From NCBI RefSeq assembly GCF_014397115.1, contig NZ_CP060720.1:884001-948000 (forward strand): DNA of 64,000 nt. Reading direction: 5' to 3'. The notes under the pieces were generated by a model. That model was not told the DNA's origin. It searched no databases and saw only the letters and a list, made by a program, of their open reading frames with translations. The stretch is from Vagococcus carniphilus. Its GTDB lineage: Bacteria; Bacillota; Bacilli; Lactobacillales; Vagococcaceae. Each line of letters opens with the position of its first letter. Position 1 is the first letter of the stretch. The translations under genes and the position numbers were made by a program. Shown here one piece after another: positions 14,162 to 21,075 of the stretch.

Positions 14162-15115
14162 ATGCAAGAGCTAAAAGATAAAAAAGTTTTATTAGATGTA
14201 AAAAATCTTAAACAACATTTTAATGTTGGAAGAGAAGATGAGGTAAAAGCTGTTGATGGGATTAGTTTTTCAATTTATGAAGGGGAAACATTTGGACTAG
14301 TTGGTGAGTCAGGCTGTGGTAAATCTACAACAGGTCGAAGTATTATTCGCTTGTATCATCCAACTAGTGGGGAAATTCAATTTGATGGTGAGGATATTGC
14401 TAAAATCAAAGGTCGTAAAAATTTGAATCAGTTTAGACGTGATGTTCAAATGATTTATCAAGATCCTTATGCTTCTTTGAATCCACGAATGAAAGTAAAG
14501 GATATTATCGCTGAGGGAATTGATGTTCATGGTTTAGCCAAAAATGATGAAGATCGAACTAATCGAGTTAATGAATTATTGAAAACGGTAGGTCTTGATC
14601 CAAGTCATGGAACTCGTTATCCACATGAGTTTTCTGGAGGACAAAGACAAAGAATTGGTATTGCACGTGCACTAGCTGTAGAGCCTAAGTTTATTATTTG
14701 TGATGAACCTATCTCAGCTTTAGATGTGTCCATCCAAGCTCAAGTTGTGAATTTACTGCAAGAATTACAAGAGCAACAAAAATTAACTTATTTATTTATT
14801 GCTCATGATTTATCTATGGTTAAATATATTAGTGATCGTATTGGAGTTATGTATTTTGGGAGATTAGTAGAGGTCGGAACAGCAGAAGAAATTTATAATT
14901 ATGGTTTGCATCCTTATACTGAAAGTTTGTTATCTGCTATTCCATTACCAGACCCAGACTATGAAAGAAATCGCCAACGAATCACATACAAGCCAAATCA
15001 ACAAGATACAAAGGAACGTAGTTTGCGTGAAGTTGGTCCCGAGCATTTTGTTTATTGTAGTGAAGATGAAGTTGAGATGTACAGGGATAAACTATTGAAG
15101 AAGAAAGATCAGTAG
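14162..15115 (+). CDS. oppF: Oligopeptide ABC transporter ATP-binding protein OppF
   Basis: Second ATPase of the peptide importer, 317 residues. Walker [11 protein letters not shown]-loop [15 protein letters not shown], signature [15 protein letters not shown], Walker [14 protein letters not shown] and the switch segment [20 protein letters not shown] are complete. The oligo_HPY tail ([20 protein letters not shown]) is present. It starts 16 bases after oppD with AAAGGGGTGATTGG. A terminator 30 bases downstream ends the operon. Confidence 0.95.
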
Positions 15116-15146
15116 ATATTTCCCCCGGCTACTGTTTCTTATAGAT

Positions 15147-15187
15147 AAAAAAGACTGAAACCTGATAACTAGGTTCCAGTCTTTTTT
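15147..15187. terminator. Bidirectional terminator between oppF and the convergent amidase gene
   Basis: GACTGAAACCT (15153-15163) pairs with AGGTTCCAGTC (15171-15181) with one mismatch, flanked by an A-tract and a T-tract. Confidence 0.85.
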
Positions 15188-16141
15188 CTATTCTATGGGA
15201 GCTTTGATTCTTTTTTCATAAGCATCTAACCATTCTTTTGTGATAGGGGTGATACTAGTTGTTTGATTTTCTCCTCTATTTGCCATGAAAATGGTTGGTT
15301 TTGTGGTGTCGTTTGCAACTGAAAAAGTAAATTCAACATTGGTTGCGACACCCCATTCTCCTTTTTTATTCATGGCAATTAAAGAAAAAGCACCTGCTTT
15401 ACCGTAGCGTTTGGTTAGTAGGTCATGGAATGGATAAACGGTTTGATCACACGCCTCTTGTGGAGAAAGACCTTCTGACATTTTTCGAACAATTTCGTAG
15501 GAAAGGATTCCTTTCATCAAATCTTCTCCTAGTCCTGTTGCAGCAGCGCCACCAATTGTACTATCCACATAAAATCCTGAACCGGATAAAGGTGAGTCAC
15601 CAACTCGTCCAGTTTTTTTCATGAAGAGTCCTGAGCTGGAAGTTCCAACTGACATAGATCCCATTTGATCCAGAGTTACAACTCCAACAGTATCATGGCC
15701 GTCATACGGATTTAACTGTTTACTTTTCATATCTTCTATCCGTTTTTCCCATATTTTTTTGGCTCGTTCTGTCAGCATCTCTTTTACTTCAAAACCTTCA
15801 TCTTTTGCGTATTGAGTTGCTCCTTCACCAACTAAAAAGCTGTTAAATTTTTCCTCACTGAGTTTTTTAGCAACTGATATAGGGTTTTTTATATCCACAA
15901 TACCTGCTACAGCACCAATTTGGAAGGTATCTCCATTCATAAAAGCGGCATCCATTTCTAGAATACCTTTTGCATTAGGAAGCCCACCGTATCCTACTGA
16001 TTTATAAAAAGGATAATCTTCTACCTGTTTAATAGCAACTTCAAGTGCATCAGAGGCGTTTGTTCCAGATTCTAAAAGCTTAGTTGCTTCAACAACACTG
16101 TCATGAGCCATTCTCCAAGTTGCGATAGTACCAAAAGTCAT
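15188..16141 (-). CDS. N4-(beta-N-acetylglucosaminyl)-L-asparaginase family Ntn hydrolase
   Basis: Isoaspartyl-peptidase/glycosylasparaginase family protein of 317 residues. These enzymes self-cleave to expose an N-terminal Thr nucleophile. The cleavage segment YDGHDTVGVV puts the nucleophile at Thr151, close to Thr152 of the bacterial prototype. The substrate loops GRVGDSPLSGSGFYVD and GAAATGLGEDLM are intact. Of four possible starts, the ATG at 16141 has the best spacing (8 bases) from GGAG; in-frame ATGs at 16144, 16147 and 16159 lie closer to or before that site. There is no signal peptide, so it should be cytoplasmic. It follows the M20 peptidase gene by only 18 bases, which suggests joint use of peptide or glycopeptide amides. 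Confidence 0.88.
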   Translation of the reverse strand: MTFGTIATWRMAHDSVVEATKLLESGTNASDALEVAIKQVEDYPFYKSVGYGGLPNAKGILEMDAAFMNGDTFQIGAVAGIVDIKNPISVAKKLSEEKFNSFLVGEGATQYAKDEGFEVKEMLTERAKKIWEKRIEDMKSKQLNPYDGHDTVGVVTLDQMGSMSVGTSSSGLFMKKTGRVGDSPLSGSGFYVDSTIGGAAATGLGEDLMKGILSYEIVRKMSEGLSPQEACDQTVYPFHDLLTKRYGKAGAFSLIAMNKKGEWGVATNVEFTFSVANDTTKPTIFMANRGENQTTSITPITKEWLDAYEKRIKAPIE

Positions 16142-16159
16142 CATCATCACTCCGTTCAT

Positions 16160-17467
16160 TTATTTAATTAGTTCTGCTAAAAGATAGGTATATATTTCTA
16201 AATTTTTAAGTAAATCTTTTTGAGTCATGTACTCATTTTTGTTATGAGCAATTCCTTTTTGACCAGGAAAAGAAGGTCCAAAAGCAACAATATTAGGCAT
16301 AGTGCGAGCGTATGTTGCTCCAGTTGTTGTGACAGGGGTACCATCTAAACCAGTTAATTCTTCGTAAACCTGTGTCATTGATTTAATCATTGGGTGATTT
16401 TTATCAAAAAAAGTTGCTGGAAGTTCCCTTTTGACATGAAGAGTAGAGGATTTGGGTAAAGATTTTTGTAACTTACTTAATAAATCCTCTTTTTTCATGG
16501 TAACTGGGTATCTAATAGATAGACCAAGCTTAATTTTATTTTCTTCAAATGTTAATTCAAAGGGGGTGAGTGACAAATCACCTGATTCTTGATCGTGATA
16601 ATTTATCTTTAAACCAGAACCGTCATGTTGATTATGTAAACTATTATTTAGCCAAATTAAAAAAGAATTGAAGTCGCCTGAAACGAGATTTGTACTCACC
16701 ATTTTATTAGCAAAAAGAGTAATCACATTTTCTCCTAAATCAGGAGCATTACTAGGTGCACGTTTTCCTTCAATTAAATATTTTTTTTGATTTATAGTTA
16801 CTTCTAATCTATCAGGAATAGCACTTCTATCAAAATTCCCTTTAAAATAGGTAAGTGTGTCTAGAGAATTATCAGTAATAGGTGTTTCGATTTCTAAACG
16901 AATCATCCCCCGTTCCCCGTACACTGCAGGATACTTACAATCAGGTGTATAACCATATAATGGAGGATTTTCCTTTTCTAAATAAAGAGGAATATCAGCT
17001 GAACCACTTTCTTCGTCAGTTCCAAAAATAATTCGAACGGTTTTTGTTATAGGATAGTTTATTTCTTTTAAAACATATAATGCATATAGGTTAGCAATGA
17101 TAGGTCCTTTATTATCTAAAACACCTCGACCATAAAAAATGCCGTTGTCTAGTGTTAAATCAAACGGTGGATAATCCCAACCATCTCCTTCAGCAACAAC
17201 ATCTAAATGTCCGACTATGCCAATGTAATTGTTATCGTCATCACCAAGCTGAGCGTAACCAACTGCATTGTTAATTATTTTTGTTTTAAATCCAAGTTCT
17301 TTTGAAAGAAGAATAGCTTCATCCAAGACAAGTTTTGGACCTAAACCAAAAGGAGCATTTTTTTCTGGAGTAGATTTTACGCTATTAATTTTCATGATAC
17401 GTTTTAAACCTTTGTAAAAATCCGTTTCAATTTCAGCTAGTTTCTCTTTAAATAATGAAATATCCAT
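16160..17467 (-). CDS. M20 family dipeptidase (PepV/Sapep type)
   Basis: Zinc-dependent cytosolic dipeptidase of 435 residues. Metal-binding segments are complete: GIVGHLDVVAEGDGW, the bridging Asp region GRGVLDNKGP and GTDEESGS. The C-terminal segment TTGATYARTMPNIVAFGPSFPGQKGIAHNKNEY contains the usual His ligand. The lid domain lies between about 190 and 330. An ATG at 17467 is preferred, with GGAAG 8 bases upstream; a GTG at 17476 overlaps the ribosome site. Together with the amidase gene downstream it forms a two-gene unit reading away from the palindrome at 17520. Confidence 0.9.
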   Translation of the reverse strand: MDISLFKEKLAEIETDFYKGLKRIMKINSVKSTPEKNAPFGLGPKLVLDEAILLSKELGFKTKIINNAVGYAQLGDDDNNYIGIVGHLDVVAEGDGWDYPPFDLTLDNGIFYGRGVLDNKGPIIANLYALYVLKEINYPITKTVRIIFGTDEESGSADIPLYLEKENPPLYGYTPDCKYPAVYGERGMIRLEIETPITDNSLDTLTYFKGNFDRSAIPDRLEVTINQKKYLIEGKRAPSNAPDLGENVITLFANKMVSTNLVSGDFNSFLIWLNNSLHNQHDGSGLKINYHDQESGDLSLTPFELTFEENKIKLGLSIRYPVTMKKEDLLSKLQKSLPKSSTLHVKRELPATFFDKNHPMIKSMTQVYEELTGLDGTPVTTTGATYARTMPNIVAFGPSFPGQKGIAHNKNEYMTQKDLLKNLEIYTYLLAELIK

Positions 17468-17519
17468 ATGTATCACTTCCTTAGATTTAAGTATATACTA
17501 GGTGGAAACACATTTGAAC

Positions 17520-17541
17520 TATTTAGTTAAATAACTAAATA
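17520..17541. promoter_or_regulatory. Perfect 22-bp AT-rich palindrome between divergent genes
   Basis: TATTTAGTTA (17520-17529), AA, TAACTAAATA (17532-17541) is a perfect inverted repeat with a two-base centre, typical in form of a dimeric repressor site. It lies 53 bases upstream of the dipeptidase start and 171 bases upstream of the recombinase-like gene. The remaining intergenic sequence to 17711 shows TATAAT-like words near 17667 and 17680 but no convincing -35. Confidence 0.55.
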
Positions 17542-17711
17542 ATAAGAGTAATAATCACAAATATTCATAAAAAGCTCTTTTTTTGCCAGAAATTTCCTAA
17601 CCTTAAGAAAAGTTTGATAAGGCAGGTTTTTTAAAAAAGAGATATAGTATGAACATAATTGAGTAGTATAATAAATTTATAATACAGAGTTTACATATAG
17701 GGGGAAAAAAT

Positions 17712-18269
17712 ATGAAGAAAATAGGGTATGTGTACGCGTCTAGTGAGGAAAGTTATGTAAAAGAGCAGATTGAAGGGTTAAAAGCATTTGAAATTGAAAC
17801 TGTTTCAATAGAAAAAGAAGATATGTCAGGTGTCGCTCAAAATGATGCTGTTTTAAAAGAAGTGGTAGAGAGTCTAGATTCTGGGGATGAATTAGTTGTC
17901 TATGAACTACGTTGTTTAGGGAAGTCTATTATTCAGCTAGCTGAATTTTTAAGCGATTTAAAAGAAAGAAACATTCAATTAATTGTAGTAAAAAAAGGTG
18001 CTGCATATAGTGATATTAAAGATGCTCCTTATGTTGAGATGATTTTGAAAATTGCTGAAATGGAAAAAATGATTATTCGTGAAAGAACAACAAAAGGATT
18101 GCAAGAAGCTCGCCGTAAAGGTCGTGTTGGTGGAAGACCAAAAATTTCGGAAGAAACAATCGAGCAAATTAGATATTTGTATAATAATAATCGATATACA
18201 CTACGCCAAATTGCTGAAGAATGTAACATTTCATTAGGAACTGCGTATAAATACGTTCAAGAAAGATAA
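17712..18269 (+). CDS. Serine-recombinase-like protein with lost catalytic arginines
   Basis: Protein of 185 residues with the length and layout of Tn3/gamma-delta resolvases: an N-terminal resolvase fold, a long helix (about 100-135) with RERTTKG, and a C-terminal helix-turn-helix (about 145-183, LRQIAEECNISLGTAYKYVQ). It aligns without gaps at the key points with gamma-delta resolvase. Ser10, Gln19 and Arg125 are kept, but Arg8 is Tyr, Asp67 is Arg, Arg68 is Cys and Arg71 is Lys. Strand-exchange activity is therefore unlikely. No transposon ends, res-like repeats or transposase lie nearby. It is preceded by ATAGGGGGAAAAAAT. A DNA-binding regulator derived from a resolvase is the likeliest role; this is inference. 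Confidence 0.8.
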   Translation: MKKIGYVYASSEESYVKEQIEGLKAFEIETVSIEKEDMSGVAQNDAVLKEVVESLDSGDELVVYELRCLGKSIIQLAEFLSDLKERNIQLIVVKKGAAYSDIKDAPYVEMILKIAEMEKMIIRERTTKGLQEARRKGRVGGRPKISEETIEQIRYLYNNNRYTLRQIAEECNISLGTAYKYVQER

Positions 18270-18270
18270 T

Positions 18271-18319
18271 AAAAAAGTGAACTCAATGAGATTTATCCAT
18301 CTCTTGAGTTCACTTTTTT
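18271..18319. terminator. Bidirectional terminator between the recombinase-like gene and fetB
   Basis: AAGTGAACTCAA plus TGAGAT pairs with ATCTC plus TTGAGTTCACTT, with a single bulged T, flanked by A and T tracts. Confidence 0.88.
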
Positions 18320-19077
18320 TAGTTTAGTTGATCAAAATCATTGAAATATTTTCCATAACTTAAGTAAGTAGCAATCATCGTAGCAAAACCAGTTGTTGAG
18401 ATGAGCATAAACATAACTACTATTTGATAACGAATAGCCGTTGTTGGATCAATACCAGCAAACATCAATCCACTCATCATACCAGGAAGGCTAACTAGAC
18501 CAACTGTTTTGGTGCTATCAATACTTGGTGACATAGCGGTTTTAATACTTTCTCTAATAATTGGAAGCGTTGCTTGTTTTTTAGTTGCACCTAATGCCAA
18601 TTTTTCTTGAACTTGTTGTTTTTGATCTGTAAATTTTGATTGCATGGTTCTATATCCAACACCAATAGCAGTCATTGCATTACTAGCAATCATACCGGTG
18701 ATTGGAACAATTTGAGAAGGTGTCCATTTTAGAGTGCCAGATAAATAGAGAACGGTAAGTGAGACAAATGTTCCAACACCAATAGCAATAAGTGAAATTT
18801 GAAAACTGTTTTTTAAATGATTTGCTCTTTTTCCTGCATTATAAGCTGCGTTAAAAATAATAAAAAGAACCATGACAGTAGTTGTAATAACATTATCCAA
18901 TTTGAAAATGGCACTTAGAACATAGCCGATAATAAATAATTGTATGACAGCTCGAATTGCTGCAATAAAAATGTCTTTACCTAATCCGAGCTTCTCTTTG
19001 TAATCAATAATAAGGGCGATTAAAACAAGTGAACTAGCAAAAAATAGAGAGGTATTTGAAATATCTAAATTATTCAT
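18319..19077 (-). CDS. fetB: ABC transporter permease, UPF0014/FetB family
   Basis: Membrane protein of 252 residues with about seven hydrophobic segments. The family hallmarks are AAIRAVIQLFIIGYVL near the N-terminus, PITGMIASNAMTAIGVGYRTM in the middle, and LPGMMSGLMFAGIDPTTAIRYQIVVMFM towards the end. E. coli FetAB (YbbLM) of this family is linked to iron export and peroxide resistance; the transported substrate here is not known. Its start overlaps the end of the ATPase gene by 8 bases, so the two are translationally coupled. The stop codon sits in the shared terminator. Confidence 0.88.
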   Translation of the reverse strand: MNNLDISNTSLFFASSLVLIALIIDYKEKLGLGKDIFIAAIRAVIQLFIIGYVLSAIFKLDNVITTTVMVLFIIFNAAYNAGKRANHLKNSFQISLIAIGVGTFVSLTVLYLSGTLKWTPSQIVPITGMIASNAMTAIGVGYRTMQSKFTDQKQQVQEKLALGATKKQATLPIIRESIKTAMSPSIDSTKTVGLVSLPGMMSGLMFAGIDPTTAIRYQIVVMFMLISTTGFATMIATYLSYGKYFNDFDQLN

Positions 19078-19729
19078 TAATATCCTCCTTTATCGTTCCA
19101 TTATCAATAATTAATTGTTGATTGGATGAAAGAAACTCTTCCTCATTATGGGTGACCCAAAGAATAGTTATCTGCTTATTTTGATTTAAGCTGTGGATAA
19201 TATTATAAATAATTTGTCTGTTTTCATGATCAAGAGCACTAGTAACTTCATCTAATAAAAGAACTTTAGGTTGAAATAGTAGATTTCTAACAAAAGCTAT
19301 CCGTTGTTTTTCTCCACCTGATAAAGAATCGATTGATTTATTAAGATAATCAGATGTTAATTTGACTGATTCGAGTAAGGAGATTGCTTTTGTTTCATCA
19401 AATGAAAGATTTCTTATTTCATATGGAAAAGTTAGATTATCGCGGACAGTTTCACCAAATAAAACTGGATTCTGGAAAAAATAGGAAACTTCTTTTCGGT
19501 AATCTGTGGAGAGATATAGATCTATTTTTTTGTCATTAAAGTAAATATCGCCACTTGTTGGTCTAATCATATTGGCAATTAATTTTAAAAGAGTACTTTT
19601 GCCACTACCTGATGGTCCGCTGATAGTTATTAAGTCTCCTTCTTTAACTTGAAATGAAATATTTTTTAATATATTTTTATCGTTAGCGCTATAGCTTAAT
19701 TGATCTGTTTTTATAATAGTATTTGTCAT
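19070..19729 (-). CDS. fetA: ABC transporter ATP-binding protein, FetA type
   Basis: ATPase of 219 residues. Walker A GPSGSGKST (38-46), Q-loop YFFQNPVLFGETV, signature LSGGEKQRIAFVRNL, Walker B VLLLDEVTSALD and the switch His in LWVTHNEEE are present. The ATG at 19729 follows TAGGAGGTTAACA; an upstream in-frame ATG at 19756 has no ribosome site. It is the first gene of a two-gene operon with the UPF0014 permease, which identifies it as the FetA partner. No metal-responsive operator was recognised upstream. Confidence 0.87.
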   Translation of the reverse strand: MTNTIIKTDQLSYSANDKNILKNISFQVKEGDLITISGPSGSGKSTLLKLIANMIRPTSGDIYFNDKKIDLYLSTDYRKEVSYFFQNPVLFGETVRDNLTFPYEIRNLSFDETKAISLLESVKLTSDYLNKSIDSLSGGEKQRIAFVRNLLFQPKVLLLDEVTSALDHENRQIIYNIIHSLNQNKQITILWVTHNEEEFLSSNQQLIIDNGTIKEDINE

Positions 19730-19884
19730 TGTTAACCTCCTATAACCAGGACTCATTGTAGCATGCAGTCTTTTTTATTCTAAGTAAAATTACTTAAATG
19801 ATAGTGATAGTCATCTTCATATGAGTAGTTGTTTATCGTTTTTTATAGTATATTTGAATAAGAAAATAAAAAGGAGGACAGGTA

Positions 19885-20355
19885 ATGATTTATGATCAAG
19901 CAACAACAGTAGATATTCCTCAAATAAAAGCTTTATATCAAGAGTTGACGCAAAGAATTCATGAATTAGAACCTGATTTTTTTAAAGATGCTCAGCAAAG
20001 AAACTCTTTCTTTGAAGAGATGATCCTTTCCAAAAATTCAGATATACTAATAGTAAAAGATGGTGCCAATCTTGTAGGGTTAGCGATTATTCAATTACAA
20101 GAGACACCTGATTATCCCATTTTTGAAAAACACACATTTTGTTATTGTTTAGATCTTGTTGTCACAAAAGATTATCGAGCTCAAGGAATTGCTAGTAAAC
20201 TATTATCACAAATTGAAGAGTGGGCTTATCAAAAAAAGGCAGAATATATTGAGTTAAGTGTTTTGAATAAAAATAAAAATGCTTTTAATTTATATCAATC
20301 AACTGGTTTTTTAGAAAAAATGACAACACTTTATAAAAAAGTAGATAAAAAATAA
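19885..20355 (+). CDS. GNAT family N-acetyltransferase
   Basis: Acetyl-CoA-dependent acetyltransferase of 156 residues. The acetyl-CoA-binding motif A is seen as CYCLDLVVTKDYRAQGIASKLLSQIEEWAYQKKAEYIELSVLNKNKNAFNLYQSTGF, with the characteristic R/Q-x-x-G-x-A (RAQGIA) and the closing NKNAFNLYQSTGF. Start chosen from AAAAGGAGGACAGGTA. It is a single gene between the divergent fetA and udk. The acceptor substrate (small molecule or protein) cannot be predicted. Confidence 0.88.
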   Translation: MIYDQATTVDIPQIKALYQELTQRIHELEPDFFKDAQQRNSFFEEMILSKNSDILIVKDGANLVGLAIIQLQETPDYPIFEKHTFCYCLDLVVTKDYRAQGIASKLLSQIEEWAYQKKAEYIELSVLNKNKNAFNLYQSTGFLEKMTTLYKKVDKK

Positions 20356-20374
20356 GAAATTCATTACGAAAATC

Positions 20375-20403
20375 TTGAAAGTAAGTGCTTGATAGAGTAG
20401 GAT
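20375..20403 (+). promoter_or_regulatory. Promoter of udk
   Basis: TTGAAA (20375-20380), 17 bases, TAGGAT (20398-20403), 39 bases upstream of the start codon. Confidence 0.5.
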
Positions 20404-20442
20404 ATCAAAGAAGGATTAAATAGAATTAAGTGAGGGATACCC

Positions 20443-21075
20443 ATGCAAACAAAAAATGAGCGCCCCGTTGTAATAGGAGTCACAGGTGGTTCAGGAAGTG
20501 GTAAAACAAGTGTTAGTCGTGCAATTTTAAATGCTCTACCAAACCATTCAATCTTACTTTTTGAGCAAGACTCTTATTATAAAGATCAAAGTCACTTGTC
20601 ATTTGAAGAAAGATTAAATACAAATTATGATCATCCCTTGGCGTTTGATACAGATTTGTTGATAGAACATTTAAAACAATTGATGTCTTATCAATCGATT
20701 GACAAACCAGTTTATGATTATGAGGCTCACACAAGAAGTGCAGAAGTTGTACATCAAGACCCTAAAGAAGTCATTATTTTAGAAGGTATCTTAATTTTAG
20801 AAGATGAGAGATTAAGAGATTTAATGGATATCAAAGTATACGTTGATACTGAAGATGATATTAGAATTATTCGTCGAATTAAACGTGATATGGAAGACAG
20901 AGGTCGTTCATTGGATTCTGTCATAGAGCAGTATCTAAATGTTGTGAAACCGATGCATCATCAATTTATAGAACCAACCAAAAAATACGCTGATATAATT
21001 GTGCCAGAAGGTGGCGAAAATCAAGTAGCCATTGATTTATTAACAACAAAAGTAAGAAGTATTTTAGAAAATTAA
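20443..21075 (+). CDS. udk: Uridine kinase
   Basis: Phosphorylates uridine and cytidine to UMP and CMP in pyrimidine salvage, using ATP or GTP. The P-loop GGSGSGKT is at residues 15-22. The substrate segments [30 protein letters not shown] and YDYEAHTRS, the Walker-B-like [10 protein letters not shown], and the lid [52 protein letters not shown] are all standard. Length (210) is normal. GTGAGGGATACCC precedes the ATG. Confidence 0.95.

Follow-up and report, generated by a model that had tools for sequence, protein, structure and literature searches.

A resolvase homologue without its active-site arginines, conserved in the Vagococcus family and likely domesticated as a DNA-binding regulator

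Why is a gene for a serine recombinase kept when the arginines of its active site have gone? The question is raised by one gene in the 64,000-nucleotide stretch of Vagococcus carniphilus DNA analysed here (the window; positions below are those of this stretch). A first-pass annotation had described its product as looking like a resolvase turned into a DNA-binding regulator. Comparison with relatives favors that description, since the residue losses are conserved, purifying selection centers on the HTH, and a palindrome lies in the gene's own promoter; together these point to a probable regulatory role.

The protein, its residues and its locus

17712..18269, + strand: 185-aa homologue of small serine recombinases that lacks the active-site arginines (P0001), from the ORF list, Pfam and alignment
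17712..18011, + strand: former catalytic domain, residues 1-100, with the modelled fold kept and the active site lost (Y8, S10, D45, R67, C68, K71)
18012..18122, + strand: residues about 101-137, a long and well-conserved E helix that usually serves dimerisation (alignment, structure model)
18123..18266, + strand: residues 138-185, comprising the GGRP arm and HTH, with the highest conservation in the protein (alignment, pN/pS)
about 18271..18319, + strand: intrinsic terminator hairpin and T run (-24.9 kcal/mol, z -7.9)

The open reading frame at 17712-18269 on the forward strand starts with ATG and encodes 185 amino acids with zero internal stops, so the gene is intact, as the annotation had it. 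Pfam assigns the protein to Resolvase (PF00239, E 1.5e-20, 74.2 bits against a cut-off of 23.3), with HTH_7 C-terminal to it (E 2.5e-7, 31.2 bits, cut-off 23.8). Every NCBIfam model listed for the protein scored below its cut-off, including the Mpi-type master invertase NF009949, with 41.5 bits against a curated cut-off of 272. The predicted structure (pLDDT 89.2, from 57 sequences) has the Sin, gamma-delta and Tn3 resolvases as its PDB matches, at Z about 14; superposition on gamma-delta resolvase (1gdt; Z 13.8, 134 residues, rmsd 4.3) places the model in the resolvase fold. The top PDB match by sequence is the Gin structure 4m6f (E 8.1e-16).

Alignment to 1gdt is gap-free at the key positions and gives the substitutions R8Y, R45D, D67R, R68C and R71K, with Ser10, Gln19, Glu124 and Arg125 retained (gamma-delta resolvase numbering). 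This agrees with the earlier reading of the numbering, of the kept Ser10, Gln19 and Arg125 and of the four replacements at 8, 67, 68 and 71, and the Arg45 that was then not evident is an Asp. Descent and fold mark the window protein as a serine recombinase; by its residues it is not an enzyme of that family. Arg8 and Arg68 contact the scissile phosphate in Tn3 resolvase (PMC4499144). Strand exchange should be lost in the window protein, because the arginines that hold the phosphate are gone and, in many relatives, so is the nucleophilic serine. Residual nicking may still be possible, as Ser10, Gln19 and Arg125 are in place.

The surroundings look like those of an ordinary chromosomal gene. A GGGGG-type ribosome site can be read 5' of the ATG, and the hairpin at about 18271-18319 supplies the terminator, though a simple terminator scan did not list it; both features had been claimed before. 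Five neighbors were matched by profile comparison to ordinary families, in keeping with the annotation's view of the locus: a Sapep/PepV-type dipeptidase, FetB-like and FetA-like ABC proteins (both under the equivalog cut-offs), a uridine kinase and a beta-aspartyl-peptidase-like protein (below cut-off). Inspection by eye of the ORFs between 12000 and 24000 showed no linked transposase, the comparison with families covering the five neighbors named. An Rfam search of 15000-20500 gave zero matches. Elsewhere in the same genome, one small contig carries a resolvase homologue with one in-frame TGA (L005, G000:C2:38905-39456). Another (G000:C3) carries an ordinary resolvase, L002, which is nearly identical to L100 from another family (G257) and probably derives from a mobile element.

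Relatives were collected from 29 genomes of the Vagococcus family (f1), 14 of them in the genus; we take this family to be the Vagococcaceae of GTDB. NCBI taxonomy places Vagococcus within the Enterococcaceae. A relative of the window protein was found in 14/14 genus genomes and, at E<=1e-20, in 29/29 family genomes. We refer to the window protein's type as V-type, and to a type linked to rpiA and gpmA in a second family, f3, as E-type. The V-type orthologue set comprises 29 rows from 28 genomes, G022 contributing two, and does not count the paralogues L034 and L035 or L062; the 29th genome, G014, holds an E-type gene (L122) and a divergent relative (L097).

None of Arg8, Arg45, Asp67, Arg68 and Arg71 is kept in any of the 29 V-type rows. 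Ser10 is kept in 13 and replaced by Thr, Asn, Gly, Ala or Leu in the other 16, and Arg125 is kept in all. A second alignment, free of duplicates, gave the same picture (the five residues in 0/25 rows, Ser10 in 11/25). The annotation had asked whether its set of substitutions is conserved across orthologues. The losses are, recurring in all 29 rows, and they are for this reason more than chance; the exact replacements are not, with Y, F, N or H at position 8 and R, V, I, L or S at position 67. Orthologues with the normal arginines and linked res sites, named at the outset as evidence to the contrary, did not appear in these 29 rows from 28 genomes.

Conservation rises toward the C-terminus. Of the invariant columns in an alignment of 28 rows, most fall at residue 118 or later (E helix, GGRP arm, HTH). 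The pN/pS ratio, computed from 45 pairs drawn from 10 of the 14 coding sequences of the genus, is 0.15 for the whole protein; it falls from 0.20 in residues 1-100 to 0.12 in the E helix and 0.05 in the HTH. The whole protein is maintained; purifying selection is strongest on the HTH, and the DNA-binding end is the slowest to change. On these comparisons the gene has probably been domesticated in the core genome of the genus and the family.

A palindrome in the gene's own promoter and its counterparts elsewhere

17584..17619, no strand assigned: putative operator, a 36-bp palindrome with the consensus TATCAAAnTTTnCATAnnnnTATGnAAAnTTTGATA (34.7 bits), from a motif search upstream of V-type genes
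17643..17648, + strand: probable -10 box TATAGT; TATAGT/TATACT is common to near relatives, and the consensus scan disagrees

The palindrome was found in 24/24 regions upstream of V-type genes (260 bp each, 23 genomes), with best scores of 19.8 to 38.8 bits, and is also present upstream of the gene in the remaining five V-type genomes (G007, G011, G012, G019 and G026). The motif log-likelihood is 393, against 61-68 in three mononucleotide shuffles, which keep neither the dinucleotides nor the relatedness of the sequences. The site at 17584-17619 is the only strong match in the 64 kb of the window (34.4 bits, the next being 8.5); with regard to res sites, a search confined to this shared motif type found that single palindrome. 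Its layout is that of two 12-bp outer motifs set 12 bp apart. Seven columns (11, 13, 16, 24, 26, 27 and 33) are invariant across 28 sites, of which 24 are first and four are second sites. The pairs 11/26 and 13/24 are symmetric, and the partners of columns 16, 27 and 33 agree in 26/28, 26/28 and 25/28 sites, respectively. The spacing fits a resolvase accessory site (site II-like) and not a crossover site (PMC9943657), and because of this inter-motif spacing the putative operator may descend from a res site. The same motif was not found upstream of the paralogue L017, nor upstream of a G033 gene from outside the family with a similar HTH.

The TATAGT hexamer begins 23 bp past the putative operator, and the corresponding -35 position, 17620-17625, reads AGGCAG. 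As this sequence is unlike TTGACA and abuts the putative operator, activation is favored over repression as the outcome of binding. The argument is weakened by the consensus promoter scan, which does not list the TATAGT promoter and gives TTAAAA-17-CATAAT at 17631-17659 instead, an alternative with a -35-like hexamer.

A sequence-only model of the site, built from the V-type gene's own promoters and trained on the very promoters that it then recovers, was searched in the 29 family genomes, and 40 sites away from the gene were inspected among the matches listed. Within that list the sites upstream of walR and rpoB are the most recurrent. The identity of walR rests on the YycF response regulator profile (452.7 bits, cut-off 340), with WalK at 846.7 against 725. 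A site scoring >=7.5 lies at -165 to -186 from the walR start in 13/14 genus genomes, and is preserved between diverged flanks; none was found in G010 or in the 14 other family genomes tested (0/14). Only 1/213 other upstream regions scored as high; these controls come mostly from other genera and do not include 28 regions that were set aside for sharing the operator of the V-type gene itself. For rpoB, a site scoring >10 lies about 650-720 bp 5' of the gene in 9/14 genus genomes and is absent from the other five; it is present in 0/14 of the other family genomes, where the best score is 3.1. Since walR and rpoB were singled out once whole genomes had been scanned, and since the genomes share ancestry, these counts cannot be treated as independent trials. 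Within the window's own genome the walR site (E 0.027) ranks below both a site near ABC_cobalt-type and Mga-like genes (2.1e-4) and the rpoB site (4.8e-4).

The site near the ABC_cobalt-type and Mga-like genes, L152 (G000:C1:2348849-2348882), has an ABC_cobalt-type gene on one side and the gene for an Mga-like regulator on the other. Operator-like sites were also seen between motAB-like and flgB-like genes, named from sequence, in G002 (L170) and G027 (L171), and near genes for sortase, LPXTG, MucBP or collagen-binding proteins in other family genomes (L161, L183, L168, L190 and L191). The motA-flgB, sortase, LPXTG, MucBP and collagen-binding cases are single or double occurrences and were left uncounted.

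A proposed mechanism and its alternatives

We consider it likely that the window protein is a resolvase that has lost catalysis and been domesticated as a DNA-binding regulator of its own gene, with sites at walR-walK and rpoB in the genus. With the active site lost and the dimer helix and HTH kept, the function that remains would be promoter binding. A dimer formed through the E helix would bind the 36-bp two-fold symmetric putative operator at the upstream edge of the gene's own promoter. Binding there would lead to autoregulation, more likely by activation if the -35 box is indeed absent. In the genus Vagococcus the protein would also act at the matching sites that precede walR-walK and rpoB. 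The binding, its sign and the regulon are our proposals, placed beside the computed losses, conservation, selection and motif positions given above.

The palindrome could instead belong to an unrelated conserved regulator, the dead recombinase having another role. The link between protein and motif is one of position, and the center of the motif is as conserved as its ends, which would suit a different owner. Set against this, the upstream neighbors vary between genomes and the palindrome remains with the V-type gene; the promoter block of the E-type, whose HTH is another, is different; and in G014, which has the E-type HTH, a block similar to that one and no palindrome can be seen by eye. We think separate ownership unlikely on this evidence.

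An architectural role, in which the protein bends or loops DNA as resolvase dimers do at accessory sites and is not a classical transcription factor, appears improbable. Resolvases do form looped complexes, the spacing is site II-like (PMC9943657), and second sites of at least 15 bits lie 90-100 bp upstream in 5/24 regions; the other 19/24 regions have a single site of that strength, however, and the recurrent sites sit in front of genes.

Very improbable, in our estimate, is an active recombinase with an unusual active site, in which Lys71 and other groups do the work on some target site. Such an enzyme would make sense of the intact fold, of Ser10, Gln19 and Arg125 in the window protein and of Lys71 in 25/25 V-type rows of the duplicate-free alignment. 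It fits poorly with the replacement of Ser10 in 16/29 rows and with the absence from all 29 of Arg8 and Arg68, the phosphate contacts of Tn3 resolvase (PMC4499144), and the conserved site has the spacing of an accessory and not a crossover site (PMC9943657). That the gene is a decaying recombinase pseudogene, open by chance, is scarcely credible: the catalytic residues are gone and residues 1-100 evolve faster than the HTH, but a relative is present in 29/29 family genomes, the orthologue matches listed from the genus and family searches lack internal stops, the promoter element is conserved, and dN is 0.076 against a dS of 1.07 between the window gene and L021, so that decay of a single copy is ruled out by the conservation and selection figures.

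E-type relatives, significance and comparison with known systems

L071-L079, L081-L091, L101 and L102: E-type loci with Thr10 between rpiA and gpmA, in f3

Family f3, probably the GTDB Enterococcaceae (Enterococcus and kin), has a match at E<=1e-45 in 63/105 genomes. In the 22 E-type loci aligned, Ser10 is Thr in 22/22, Arg45 and Asp67 are each lost in 21/22, Arg8 is kept in 22/22 and Arg68 in 17/22. The rpiA gene lies upstream in 22/22 (directly in 21) and gpmA downstream in 22/22 (directly in 17, with one or two ORFs between in five), both families having been named on one member each. A search of 125 bp upstream, with L082, L086 and L087 left out, yielded a non-palindromic promoter block, CTATCATTTnnnTnnnnTTTATGCTACATTTTTA, in 17/22 loci; L079, L082, L086, L087 and L088 score <0. 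The motif from a 250-bp upstream search was discarded, being dominated by the end of rpiA, and no palindrome was found in the E-type upstream regions. Searched in 30 genomes, the block recovered the E-type gene's own promoter in 12 at E<=3.3e-4 and otherwise nothing <0.007, and so defined no regulon. When the V-type operator model was run with stricter filters on 58 f3 genomes, 15 had matches at E<=0.05 and none had one at E<=0.001 (best 0.0014), and f3 walR upstream regions (n=30, 260 bp) reached only 5.9 bits at best (G414). In one genome, G421, the f3 promoter model matches in part at five places with equal scores, perhaps a repeated promoter.

V-type and E-type proteins fall into two clans in a quick tree, and G014 holds both kinds, an E-type gene with gpmA beside it (L122) and, from the V clan, the divergent L097; strict orthology between the types is not claimed. 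A single clade of the two is not rejected (AU p 0.397), and the V clan has an unstarred support of 81 in the AU-test set. The trees omit eight duplicate loci, and the AU test was also run without L043, L039, L046, gamma-delta and L087. Eight paralogues in the Vagococcus family (L039, L043, L044, L045, L046, L097, L098 and L119) lack the arginine set and have a similar HTH, Ser10 being retained in L045 and L119; they perhaps belong to a wider family of dead resolvases. Among 30 further rows, a count that leaves out gamma-delta and L311, at least seven of the eight examined residues are kept in 20, and the other 10 are L122, L080 and the eight arginine-less paralogues. No further match was found between the V- and E-types and ordinary resolvases in 398 genomes of the class; the next best match after f1 and f3 has E 1.3e-46, and three of the four such proteins fetched have the full residue set.

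A broader reading of these relatives is that resolvases founded a new regulator family: inactive serine recombinases would have become fixed in the Vagococcus family and the probable Enterococcaceae, perhaps twice independently, arginine-less paralogues would have arisen, and one member would control walR-walK and rpoB through an operator derived from a res accessory site. We offer this whole scenario tentatively, and hold it to be possible but doubtful.

Family models call proteins of this kind recombinases, so that a conserved Vagococcus regulator, and probably a related enterococcal one too, would be overlooked. The two types also form a natural series of inactivation, from the E-type with Thr10 and Arg8 to the V-type with the arginine set gone, on which the path from enzyme to regulator can be tested. 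The walRK cell-wall circuit is essential in related bacteria, and should the sites at walRK and rpoB prove real, a former mobile-element protein would be tied to it.

Among the openly licensed papers listed by our searches, none appeared to describe a serine recombinase or resolvase that has lost its activity and works as a regulator, or this locus. In a review of how prokaryotes have recruited mobile genes, serine recombinases figure as active invertases, among them Hin, which inverts DNA to switch genes, and a dead serine recombinase is absent from its transcription-factor section, as far as the available text extends (PMC8987985).

The E-type of f3 resembles the window protein in its catalytic losses (Thr10, Arg45 lost) and its fixed chromosomal locus. 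It differs from the V-type in keeping Arg8 and, mostly, Arg68, and in having another HTH and another promoter block. The Gin and Hin DNA invertases flip DNA to switch genes; Gin is the closest PDB sequence to the window protein, which, unlike these enzymes, is missing the catalytic set. The complex of Sin with its regulatory site II (2r0q) is among the closest structural matches, and the window protein may be likened to the Sin dimer at accessory site II, a non-cleaving element. Unlike Sin, it has lost the arginine set, and its site is an inverted repeat, whereas the half-sites of Sin site II are direct repeats (PMC9943657). With the gamma-delta and Tn3 TnpR resolvases the window protein shares the fold, the domain order, HTH_7 with its arm, and the dimerisation helix. 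Tn3 TnpR was named for repression of the transposase, and resolvase bound at res autoregulates tnpR and tnpA (PMC7157771); a resolvase is thus already a promoter-binding protein, and the regulation proposed here would be similar to that which TnpR exerts on its own and the transposase promoters through res. Unlike these resolvases, the window protein is encoded by a conserved chromosomal gene, is without the active-site arginines, and shows one promoter palindrome of the shared motif type in the window in place of res I-II-III.
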